From assembly GCA_022072045.1 (NCBI GenBank), contig JAJVIL010000019.1, positions 1-38,090 on the forward strand: a stretch of 38,090 bases of DNA. The letters run 5' to 3'. The notes below the pieces were generated by a model. The model was given only the letters and a program-made list of their open reading frames with translations, searched no databases and was not told where the DNA came from. Below, one piece after another: positions 12,432-30,051 of the stretch. Position numbers and translations under genes: made by a program. Origin of the DNA: Burkholderiaceae bacterium (GTDB lineage: Bacteria; Pseudomonadota; Gammaproteobacteria; Burkholderiales; Burkholderiaceae_C). Position 1 is the stretch's first letter, and each line of letters opens with the position of its first letter.

Positions 12432-12491
12432 ATGCTGCTTCGCACAACGCTCCTTTGGATCATCGCGGCGGCCGACACGGCTCACCGATGA
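12432..12491 (+). CDS. Candidate ilv leader peptide MLLRTTLLWIIAAADTAHR
   Basis: ATG CTG CTT CGC ACA ACG CTC CTT TGG ATC ATC ... TGA; four Leu and two Ile codons in 19 residues, directly upstream of ilvB. A CATAAT box (12428-12433) overlaps the ATG and competes as a promoter element. Confidence 0.45.
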   Translation: MLLRTTLLWIIAAADTAHR

Positions 12492-16133: not shown

Positions 16134-16964
16134 ATGAGCGACCTGTCGCAACCGCACGCTGAAGAGGGCGTCGTTCCCCCGCCGCTGCGGCCGCGGCGCA
16201 AGGGCATCTACATCCTGCCCAACCTGTTCACGGTGGCGGCGCTGTTCGGTGGCTTCTACGCCATTCTGATGGCGATGAACGGCCGCTTCGACGTCGCCGG
16301 CATCGGCGTTTTCAGCGCGATGGTGCTCGACAGCCTCGACGGTCGCGTGGCACGCATGACCAACACGCAAAGCGCGTTCGGCGAGCAGATGGACAGCCTG
16401 TCGGACATGGTGAGCTTCGGCGTCGCGCCGGCGCTCATCGTCTACGAGTGGGGGCTCAAGGGGCTCGGCAAGTGGGGGCTGATCGCCGCCTTCGTGTACT
16501 GCGCGTGTGCCGCGCTGCGGCTGGCGCGCTTCAATACCAACATCGGCGTGGTCGACAAGCGGTTCTTCCAGGGTTTGCCGAGTCCGGCCGCCGCCGCGCT
16601 GGTGGTCGGCTTCATCTGGGTGCTCGACGACTACGGCTTCAAGGATGCCGCGCGCGTCGAATGGCTGGGCTGGACGGCGTTCGCCGTCACGCTGTACGCC
16701 GGCCTGACGATGGTCACCAACGTGCCTTTCTACAGTTTCAAGGATGTCAGCTTCAAGCGCTCGGTGCCGTTCATCGTGATCGTCGCCATCGCGCTGGCGA
16801 TCGCGGTGGTCAACATCGCGCCGCCGCTGGTGCTGTTCGCGGCCTTCTGCGTCTACGGCTTCTCGGGCTACGCGGTCTACGGCTACAAGCGCGCGAAGGG
16901 CAAGCCGGTCAGCGTGATCGCGACCTCGACGGACGAACCCGACGAAGAGGGCCTTCATCGCTGA
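16134..16964 (+). CDS. pssA: CDP-diacylglycerol--serine O-phosphatidyltransferase
   Basis: CDP-alcohol phosphotransferase motif (LDSLDGRVARMTNTQSAFGEQMDSLSDMVSFGVAPA); N-terminal RRKGIYILPNLFTVAALFGGFYAI. Confidence 0.95.
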   Translation: MSDLSQPHAEEGVVPPPLRPRRKGIYILPNLFTVAALFGGFYAILMAMNGRFDVAGIGVFSAMVLDSLDGRVARMTNTQSAFGEQMDSLSDMVSFGVAPALIVYEWGLKGLGKWGLIAAFVYCACAALRLARFNTNIGVVDKRFFQGLPSPAAAALVVGFIWVLDDYGFKDAARVEWLGWTAFAVTLYAGLTMVTNVPFYSFKDVSFKRSVPFIVIVAIALAIAVVNIAPPLVLFAAFCVYGFSGYAVYGYKRAKGKPVSVIATSTDEPDEEGLHR

Positions 16965-17019
16965 AGGCGCCGCCGCCGGCCCTGCGAACGCGGCGGTCGG
17001 GCGTGCTACAGTGCACCCC

Positions 17020-17079
17020 ATGATGCTGCCGAACGCGATCGCTCTGGCTCTACTGCTAGGAGACCCACGGGCTCGCTGA
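17020..17079 (+). CDS. leu leader peptide [19 protein letters not shown]
   Basis: ATG ATG CTG CCG AAC GCG ATC GCT CTG GCT CTA CTG CTA GGA GAC CCA CGG GCT CGC TGA; Leu run with two CTA codons, followed by a terminator-like hairpin and then leuA. TACAGT (17007-17012) lies 7 nt before the ATG. Confidence 0.75.
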
Positions 17080-17108
17080 TCGTCCACGTCCAATCGTTTC
17101 CCGATCTC

Positions 17109-17147
17109 ACGGCCCGTATGCAACCCGCAGCGGGCCGTTTGCTTTGT
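17109..17147 (+). terminator. leuA transcription attenuator (terminator hairpin)
   Basis: ACGGCCCG (17109-17116) pairs perfectly with CGGGCCGT (17131-17138), followed by TTGCTTTGT. Alternative pairing of ACGGGCT (17067-17073) with GGCCCGT (17111-17117) forms a candidate antiterminator. Confidence 0.72.
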
Positions 17148-17180
17148 CTGAAATGCGGGTTGCGAACACCAGAGGAACCC

Positions 17181-18869
17181 ATGCTGAAGCAACCGCAGAC
17201 CAAGTACCGCCCGTTCGCACCGGTATGTCTGGCCGACCGCCGCTGGCCCGACGCCGTCCTGACCCGGGCCCCGGCGTGGTGCAGCGTCGACCTGCGCGAC
17301 GGCAATCAGGCGCTGATCGAGCCGATGGACAGCCAGCGCAAGCTGCGGATGTTCGACATGCTGGTGGACATCGGGTTCAAGGAGATCGAGGTCGGTTTTC
17401 CTTCGGCGTCGCAGACCGATTTCGACTTCGTGCGCATGCTGATCGAGCAGCGTCTGGTTCCCGACGACGTGACGATCCAGGTGCTGACGCAGGCGCGCCC
17501 CGAGTTGATCGAGCGCACGTTCGCGTCGCTGGTCGGGGCCAGGCGCGCGATCGTGCACCTGTACAACGCAACCGCGCCGGTGATGCGGCGCGTCGTGCTC
17601 GGGCTCGACGAGGACGGCATCGTCGAACTGGCCGCTTCGCACGCACGGCTGATCCGCGACCTGGCGGCGCGCCAGAGCGCCACCGAATTCGTCTTCCAGT
17701 ACTCGCCCGAGATGTTCTCGGGCACCGAGCTGGCATTCAGCAAGCGCGTGGTCGATGCGGTGACCGAGGTCTGGCAGCCGACGCCGCAGCGCAAGTGCAT
17801 CGTCAACCTGCCGTCGACGGTCGAGCACAGCACGCCCAACATCTTTGCCGACATGATCGAATGGATGCACCGGCACCTCGCACGCCGCGATGCGATCGTG
17901 CTGTCGGTGCACCCGCACAACGACCGCGGCACCGGCACCGCGGCGGCGGAGTTCGCGCTCATGGCCGGGGCCGACCGAGTCGAAGGTTGTCTATTCGGCA
18001 ACGGCGAGCGCACCGGCAACGTCGACCTGGTCAACATCGCGCTCAACCTGTACACGCAGGGCGTGACGCCGAACCTCGACTTCTCCGACATCGACGACGT
18101 GCGGCGCTGCGTCGAGCACTGCAACCAGTTGCCGGTGCACCCCCGTCACCCCTATGTCGGAGATCTTGTCTACACGTCGTTCTCAGGCTCGCACCAGGAC
18201 GCGATCAAGAAGGCGTTCGCGGCGCGTCGTGAAGGCGACATCTGGGAGATGCCGTATCTGCCGATCGACCCCAAGGATCTCGGTCGCAGCTACGACGCGG
18301 TGATCCGCGTCAACAGCCAGTCGGGCAAGGGCGGGATCGCCTACCTGCTCGAGCACGAGTTCGGGCTCGAACTGCCTCGCAGGCTGCAGATCGAGTTCAG
18401 CCGCGTCGTGCAGGCCATGACCGACGACACCGGCAAGGAAGTGACGGCGCCGCAGCTCAAGCGGCTGTTCGATGCCGAGTATGGCCTGGGGTCGCCTGCG
18501 GTCTCTCAGGTATCGATCGCCGAGCGCAGCGACGGCAGCGTCGCCGTCCACGCCCAGTGGCTGCAAGGTGACGGATCGCGCCAGCCGATCGGCGGCGTCG
18601 GCAACGGGCCGATCGACGCCTTCGTTGCCGCGCTGCAGGTGCACGTGGGCGAGCCGATCCGCGTGCTCGACTACCATGAGCACGCGATCAGCGGCGGGGC
18701 CGACGCGAGCGCCGCGGCGTACATCGAGCTGCGCGTGGGCGAGCACACCGTGTTCGGCGTCGGCGTCGATCGCAGCATCACCACCGCGTCGTTCAGCGCG
18801 ATCGTGTCCGGTGTGCGCCGGGCCCGCTCGCGCAGCGCCGCCATGCAGCCGTCGACCGCGGTTGCCTGA
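17181..18869 (+). CDS. leuA: 2-isopropylmalate synthase, long type-2 (LeuA2-like)
   Basis: [83 protein letters not shown]...[43 protein letters not shown]-terminal regulatory domain present. Confidence 0.95.
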
Positions 18870-18896: not shown

Positions 18897-20438
18897 ATGG
18901 CCGACAAGCTGATCGTTTTCGACACCACGCTGCGCGACGGCGAGCAGTCGCCCGGCGCCTCGATGACGCGCGAGGAGAAGCTGCGCATCGCGCGCCAGCT
19001 CGAGCGGCTGAAAGTCGACGTGATCGAAGCCGGCTTCGCGGCCTCGTCCAACGGCGACTTCGAGGCGGTCCGGTCGATTGCGCAGGCAGTGCGCGACAGC
19101 GTGGTGTGCTCGCTCGCGCGCGCCAACGACCGCGACATCGCGCGCGCGGCCGAGGCCCTGAAAGGTGCGGCGCGTGCGCGCATCCACACCTTCATCGCCA
19201 CCAGCGCGCTGCACATGGAGAAGAAGCTGCGCATGACGCCCGAGCAGGTGTTCGAGCAGGCCAAGCTTGCGGTGCGCTTCGCGCGCAACCTGTGCGACGA
19301 CGTCGAGTTCTCGCCCGAGGACGGCTACCGCTCCGATGTCGACTTCCTGTGCCGTGTGCTCGAAGCCGCGATTCGCGAGGGCGCGACGACGATCAACATC
19401 CCCGATACCGTGGGCTATGCCGTCCCCGAACTGTACGGCGGGTTCATCGCAGCGCTGCGCCAACGCGTGCCCAACTCGGACAAGGCGGTGTGGTCGGTGC
19501 ACTGCCACAACGATCTCGGCCTGGCCGTGGCCAACTCGCTGGCCGGCGTCAAGATCGGCGGCGCGCGCCAGGTCGAATGCACGATCAACGGCCTGGGCGA
19601 GCGCGCGGGCAACTGTGCGCTCGAGGAAGTGGTGATGGCGGTGCGCACGCGGCGCGACTACTTCGGACTCGAACTCGGCGTCGACACCAGCCAGATCGTG
19701 CCGGCGTCGCGCATGGTGAGCCAGACCACCGGCTTCGTCGTGCAGCCGAACAAGGCGGTGGTCGGCGCCAACGCGTTCGCCCACGCCTCGGGCATCCATC
19801 AGGACGGCGTGCTGAAGGCGCGCGACACCTACGAAATCATGCGCGCCGAGGACGTCGGCTGGAGCGCCAACCGCATCGTGCTGGGCAAGCTGTCGGGGCG
19901 CAACGCGTTCAAGCAGCGGCTACAGGAGCTTGGAATCGCGATGGAGTCGGAGGCCGACATCAACGCGGCGTTCATGCGCTTCAAGGATCTCGCCGACCGC
20001 AAGAGCGATATCTTCGACGAGGACATCCTGGCGCTCGTCAGCGACGAGGCTGTCAGCGGCCCGCGCGAGCACTACCGACTGCTCAGCCTCAGCCAGCACA
20101 GCGAGACCGGCGAGCGCCCGTGCGCCCACGTCAGCTTTGCCATCGGCGAGCAGGAGTTCGCCGCCGACAGCGAAGGCAACGGTCCGGTCGATGCGATCCT
20201 GAAGGCCATCGAGTCCAAGGTGGGTTCGGGCGCCGAGTTGCTGCTCTACTCGGTGAACGCCATCACTTCGGGCAGCACCGAATCGCAGGGTGAGGTGACC
20301 GTGCGCCTGCAACTCGGTGGTCGAATCGTCAACGGCGTCGGCGCCGACCCCGACATCGTGGTGGCCTCGGCGAAGGCCTACATCGCCGCGCTGAACAAAC
20401 TGCACCACGGCTCCGAACGGGTTGCGGCCCAAGGGTAA
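18897..20438 (+). CDS. leuA: 2-isopropylmalate synthase, type-1 (E. coli LeuA-like)
   Basis: [58 protein letters not shown]...[40 protein letters not shown]-terminal regulatory domain. Confidence 0.95.
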
Positions 20439-29964: not shown

Positions 29965-30051
29965 GCGCGGGTGGCGAAATTGGTAGACGCACCAGGTTTA
30001 GGTCCTGACGCCCTTACCGGCGTGCCGGTTCGAGTCCGGCCCCGCGCACCA
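29965..30051 (+). tRNA. tRNA-Leu(UAG)
   Basis: Acceptor GCGCGGG/CCCGCGC plus encoded ACCA; anticodon loop TTTAGGT (TAG); long variable arm; GGTTCGAGTCC T-arm. Confidence 0.96.

Follow-up and report, generated by a model that had tools for sequence, protein, structure and literature searches.

A predicted leucine attenuator with an apparently leaderless leader peptide upstream of leuA in a betaproteobacterial family

The window analysed here, a stretch of 38,090 nucleotides from a Burkholderiaceae bacterium (contig JAJVIL010000019.1), carries in this order ilvB, ilvH, ilvC and pssA, a leader region, and two successive leuA genes. The ilv genes and pssA were named from their own sequences. The first leuA (17181–18869) matches the profile of 2-isopropylmalate synthases of the NF002991/TIGR00970 type and is preceded by a Shine-Dalgarno sequence, AGAGGA (17171–17176); the second (18897–20438), of the TIGR00973/NF002087 type, lies 27 nt past the first and belongs to the type that stands behind the leader in other genomes. 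Both leuA genes, the leader and all of the helices described below are on the forward (+) strand. Another short ORF, MLLRTTLLWIIAAADTAHR, rich in branched-chain residues, was noticed upstream of ilvB (12432–12491, +) and is a possible ilv leader peptide.

An earlier note on this DNA had proposed a leucine attenuator between pssA and the first leuA, and the components that it listed were all recovered. The ORF at 17020–17079 encodes, base for base as claimed, a leuL-like leader peptide of 19 aa closed by a TGA stop codon (17077–17079), and similar leaders were found in homologous loci. Its five Leu codons are CTG (17026), CTG (17044), CTA (17050), CTG (17053) and CTA (17056), the last three forming the putative control codons CTA CTG CTA (17050–17058). 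Downstream, ACGGCCCG (17109–17116) and CGGGCCGT (17131–17138) form a perfect 8-bp terminator stem followed by the tail TTGCTTTGTC, the T-rich stretch of the window being interrupted (TTGCTTTG); stem arm and tail together occupy 17131–17147. Direct reading likewise bears out the complementarity between ACGGGCT (17067–17073, overlapping leader codons 16–18) and GGCCCGT (17111–17117), so that the 5′ arm of the terminator largely coincides with the 3′ arm of an alternative, antiterminator helix. Taken by itself, the element of the window is inconspicuous: its single-sequence fold is unremarkable (z −1.42) and a strict promoter and terminator scan of it returned no match, the hairpin escaping the terminator scan because its loop is longer than the 8-nt limit of that scan. 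The evidence is therefore comparative.

A blastn search with positions 16965–17240 against 41 relatives matched 13 other genomes, in all of them before a leuA gene, and each matched relative had a Leu-rich ORF in which CTA occurs once or more. With a covariance model of 14 sequences, the element was detected in 130 of 151 genomes sampled from the family, in most of them as a single copy (21 of the 151 gave no match), and in 21 of 300 genomes of the wider order, where a single additional family accounted for the strong matches beyond this one. Among leuA loci from titled genome records, 77 of 80 carry the element; in the remaining three, no more than 34 nt of sequence is available upstream of leuA. 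The 225 collected matches comprise 134 that precede a leuA of the first type, 76 that precede the second type, and 15 without a leuA match, whose scores are all 34 bits or below; all of the 210 leuA-linked matches are directly upstream of leuA, no more than 83 nt away in all except two cases. Antisense model matches overlapped in two pairs, of which the second (e.g. L003 1604–1703) was set aside as a reflection of the palindromic terminator. Reduction of the overlapping match sets left 198 distinct loci, and in 197 of these we found a leader ORF, the conservation that had been proposed beforehand as a check.

The choice of Leu codons in these leaders is very different from that of the genes around them. 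In the window, two of the five Leu codons of the leader are CTA, against 3 of 197 in ilvB, ilvH, ilvC, pssA and both leuA genes, so that the rarity of CTA in the neighbouring genes holds as described; the tRNA-Leu with anticodon UAG reported from the same window is also present (29965–30051). In the 198 distinct leaders, CTA accounts for 440 of 878 Leu codons (50%), against 13 of 7,701 (0.17%) in the downstream leuA genes. The leader ORFs (n = 198) average 18 codons with 25% Leu and are thus enriched in codons for the end product. Their spacing is also constrained, as a CGGG motif mostly follows the final Leu codon at 11–12 nt and precedes the stop by 9 or 13 nt. The use of rare CUA as a sensor has a tested precedent, since a change of CUA to CUG in the leu leader of Salmonella is described as lowering its sensitivity (Carter et al. 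1986, as cited in PMC1183508).

The leader ATG is preceded by an extended −10 element, TGC-TACAGT (17004–17012), which ends 7 nt ahead of it. Among the 124 leaders in which only one in-frame ATG is present, 97% have a −10 box (TANNNT with at least four of six matches to TATAAT) that ends 5–9 nt before this ATG, most often at 7 nt, versus 2.7% of shuffles, and none of the 124 displays a Shine-Dalgarno-like sequence before the leader ATG. A −10 box placed so that the start codon would fall at the 5′ end of the transcript, combined with this lack of a Shine-Dalgarno-like sequence, suggests an apparently leaderless leader transcript, as is established for Sinorhizobium trpL (PMC7298713, PMC10117765). 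Five loci from other families of the order (L248, L249, L250, L254, L259) have Leu-rich leuA leaders that are built differently: they carry CTGCTGCTG rather than CTA, their Leu runs are of the CTGCTGC type and lie near a GCGCGC end, and a TA...T box stands 6–7 nt before their ATG. Leu leaders without a 5′ untranslated region may be common across the Betaproteobacteria.

The apparent leaderless start is one of three features that the earlier note overlooked, together with a protector hairpin and a downstream partner of the terminator loop. The arms of the attenuator itself are strongly conserved. The terminator stem is paired in 98.9% of cases and nearly invariant, and the 8 nt after it contain on average 5.5 T (197 leaders), as expected of an intrinsic terminator between the ORF and leuA. 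The antiterminator core is paired in 97.5% of cases in the window's subgroup and 98.7% in the other. Its 5′ arm CGGG[C/T] is read as CGG GCT in 74 leaders and as ..C GGG C.. in 107 with the spacing kept, which argues for selection on the RNA rather than on the peptide. The first arm of the protector hairpin, GACCC (17062–17066), pairs with 17070–17074 with one C-C mismatch; over 47 relatives of the window's subgroup, 84.3% of its cells are paired and 8 are double-changed versus 3.0 in shuffles, and in the second subgroup it is conserved without covariation. An alternative register of this hairpin, 17060–17062 with 17072–17074, showed no covariation and was dropped for 17062–17066/17070–17074. 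Placed after the Leu codons, the protector hairpin would round off a trp-like 1:2, 2:3, 3:4 logic, with covariation seen in one subgroup only; regions 1 to 4 would be GACCC (17062–17066), ACGGGCT (17067–17073), the 5′ terminator arm (17109–17116) and the 3′ terminator arm with its tail (17131–17147).

A comparison of the best antiterminator stems with those of shuffled sequences was uninformative because the region is GC-rich, and alignment-based counts were used instead. Covariation of the helices in relatives, the other comparative check proposed beforehand, was found on this basis. The antiterminator and the helix formed by the terminator loop (hereafter helix B) were counted together: in the 47 relatives of the window's subgroup they are 94.2% paired with 26 double-changed cells versus 5.4 in shuffles and 2–4 in slid versions of the same pairing, and in the other subgroup (50 leaders) the paired fraction is 97.1%, and 19 cells are double-changed versus 5.5 in shuffles. 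Most of this signal comes from helix B, since the antiterminator core hardly varies.

Folding of 180 leaders with a ribosome placed by rule yielded the states expected of such a switch. In the free RNA the motif is held by the upstream arm (mean 0.78); with a ribosome stalled at the first CTA the antiterminator forms (0.97), and with a ribosome at the stop codon the terminator forms (0.94), the motif 17067–17073 or its equivalent being covered in 99% of the leaders. Equilibrium folds cannot decide between antiterminator and terminator, as the terminator (about −20 to −22 kcal/mol, versus −11 to −13 kcal/mol for the antiterminator) dominates in most leaders. The switch must therefore be kinetic, decided during transcription as in known attenuators.

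Taken together, the Leu- and CTA-rich ORF, the fixed spacing of the arms, the terminator, the constant leuA context and the covariation uphold the initial reading, and make it highly probable, as judged from sequence, that this element is a leucine-responsive, ribosome-mediated transcription attenuator for leuA. Transcription would start at or beside the A of the leader ATG, so that the ribosome would begin on a leaderless RNA. When charged tRNA-Leu(UAG) is scarce, the ribosome is predicted to stall at CTA CTG CTA and to cover the protector arm (17062–17066) while leaving most of ACGGGCT (17067–17073) free; the latter could then pair with 17111–17117, block the terminator and let leuA be transcribed. 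With ample leucine, the ribosome would reach the stop codon and cover ACGGGCT, and the hairpin 17109–17116/17131–17138 would terminate transcription. If no ribosome were present, the protector hairpin would hold ACGGGCT and the terminator would form too. The second leuA, behind the first, is probably under the same attenuator.

The third overlooked feature, helix B, joins the terminator loop to RNA that is made only on read-through. Its 5′ arm GCAACCCGCA (17120–17129) is within the terminator loop, and its 3′ arm TGCGGGTTGC (17154–17163) lies past the terminator, 17 nt ahead of the leuA start codon; across leaders, the helix ends at a median of 26 nt ahead of the leuA ATG. It is paired in 93–96% of cases, the pairing being kept in both subgroups by compensatory changes (e.g. 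GC:33 and AU:16 at one pair in the second subgroup) and by G-U changes. A helix B of at least 7 bp can be formed in 80% of the leaders that precede the first leuA type versus 8% of dinucleotide shuffles, and in 44% of those that precede the second type versus 10% of shuffles. After read-through, the loop could pair with 17154–17163 in either of two arrangements: nested beside the antiterminator, the arrangement of lowest energy in the window, or on the terminator stem as an H-type pseudoknot, with which the loop lengths agree (L1 mostly 2–5 nt, L2 mostly 0, L3 median 16 nt). As helix B can be formed only in read-through RNA, it should not affect the termination decision, and is thus conserved without an obvious role in termination. 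Within the same loop, an ATG at 17118 starts a 583-aa ORF that continues in frame into leuA (17118–17180 ahead of leuA), probably by coincidence.

The other readings of this element differ mainly in what they make of the hairpin and of helix B. It is very hard to credit that the hairpin is simply the intrinsic terminator of the upstream ilv-pssA operon, with the ORF incidental. Terminators between operons are common, and the hairpin at 17109 comes after the end of pssA at 16964, but about 200 leaders retain the ORF, its CTA codons and its distance from the antiterminator arm, always upstream of leuA, and the leader ATG has a −10 element of its own.

If helix B were the active structure, in the manner of the actinobacterial LEU element, the leader would act mainly on leuA translation or mRNA stability, a reading that we regard as unlikely. 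The covariation of helix B, its textbook H-type geometry and its end ahead of the leuA ATG would suit such a role, and a leader with a pseudoknot upstream of leuA has been proposed for Actinobacteria (PMC1262725). However, the conserved terminator and its T-rich tail would then be superfluous, helix B is weaker where the leader precedes the other leuA type, and the downstream segment shows no conserved pairing with the leuA ribosome-binding site: a few sequences had suggested pairing of 17154–17163 with this site, but real and swapped combinations gave −9.8 and −9.5 kcal/mol, respectively. It also appears quite improbable that the terminated leader is a trans-acting small RNA, like Sinorhizobium rnTrpL (PMC7298713, PMC10117765), whose exposed loop could pair with leuA mRNA at 17154–17163 or with other targets; the RNA set free by termination would be about 125 nt long, with a loop complementary to the leuA 5′ untranslated region, yet the cis copy of the loop on the leuA mRNA would compete with it. 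The attenuator is our preferred reading, to which helix B might, as a tentative proposal, add a second control layer: a pseudoknot or antiterminator-stacked helix that exists only after read-through and sets leuA translation or mRNA stability, or a terminated leader that acts in trans. If true, one leader would control leuA both transcriptionally and post-transcriptionally.

The core of the element is a textbook leucine attenuator; what sets it apart is a leader that appears to be leaderless and the helix formed by the terminator loop. Precedents make the core mechanism a known one, namely Salmonella leuL with its CUA codons and the leaderless Sinorhizobium trpL. As in leuL of E. coli and Salmonella leuABCD, a short peptide with clustered Leu codons, mainly rare CUA, is followed by antiterminator and terminator alternatives and directly by leuA; unlike in these species, the leader is about 18 aa long and seems to be leaderless, the ORF shares its last part with the antiterminator arm, the terminator loop has a pairing partner downstream, and the enzyme is a TIGR00970-type or, elsewhere, a TIGR00973-type LeuA. 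Sinorhizobium meliloti trpL/rnTrpL also combines a leader ORF at the 5′ end of the RNA (an apparent one here) with ribosome-mediated termination (PMC7298713, PMC10117765), but it senses Trp rather than Leu, in an alphaproteobacterium, with another peptide and other helices. In Corynebacterium glutamicum, the ilvBNC leader peptide is said to form without a ribosome-binding site (cited in PMC4046766) and a putative leuA leader peptide has four consecutive Leu codons (PMC4046766); these actinobacterial leaders are likened to ours by description, not by sequence. The actinobacterial LEU element shares a Leu-rich leader ORF and a conserved pseudoknot upstream of leuA, but its base stem joins the Leu codons to the leuA Shine-Dalgarno sequence and a terminator is not described (PMC1262725), whereas the present element has a terminator, and the energies do not support pairing between the helix B segment and the leuA ribosome-binding site.

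The element has no match in Rfam at either the gathering or a relaxed threshold. In the open-access literature searched, leu attenuators are described from Enterobacteria, Epsilonproteobacteria and Actinobacteria, and this betaproteobacterial leader family is not. The 2004 survey of proteobacterial attenuators by Vitreschak et al. may mention it.

Counted over distinct loci of the family sample, a second-type leuA follows the leader in 74 cases and a first-type leuA in 44. Among 23 sampled genomes in which a second-type gene follows the leader, 19 are without a first-type leuA, three have only a distant first-type copy (56–59% identity), and one (G489) has the leader twice, on contigs C12 and C77 (loci L168 and L133), before a leuA of each type. 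Loss of the first leuA gene would join the leader to the second.

The same leader stands in front of leuA genes of two types, in most cases in genomes that lack the other type. Rare CUA codons would be used as a sensor outside the enterobacteria, in an apparently leaderless leader, and the element offers a testable leucine switch for a GC-rich betaproteobacterial family that includes Ideonella, Piscinibacter, Rhizobacter, Ramlibacter, Variovorax, Polaromonas, Roseateles and their relatives.
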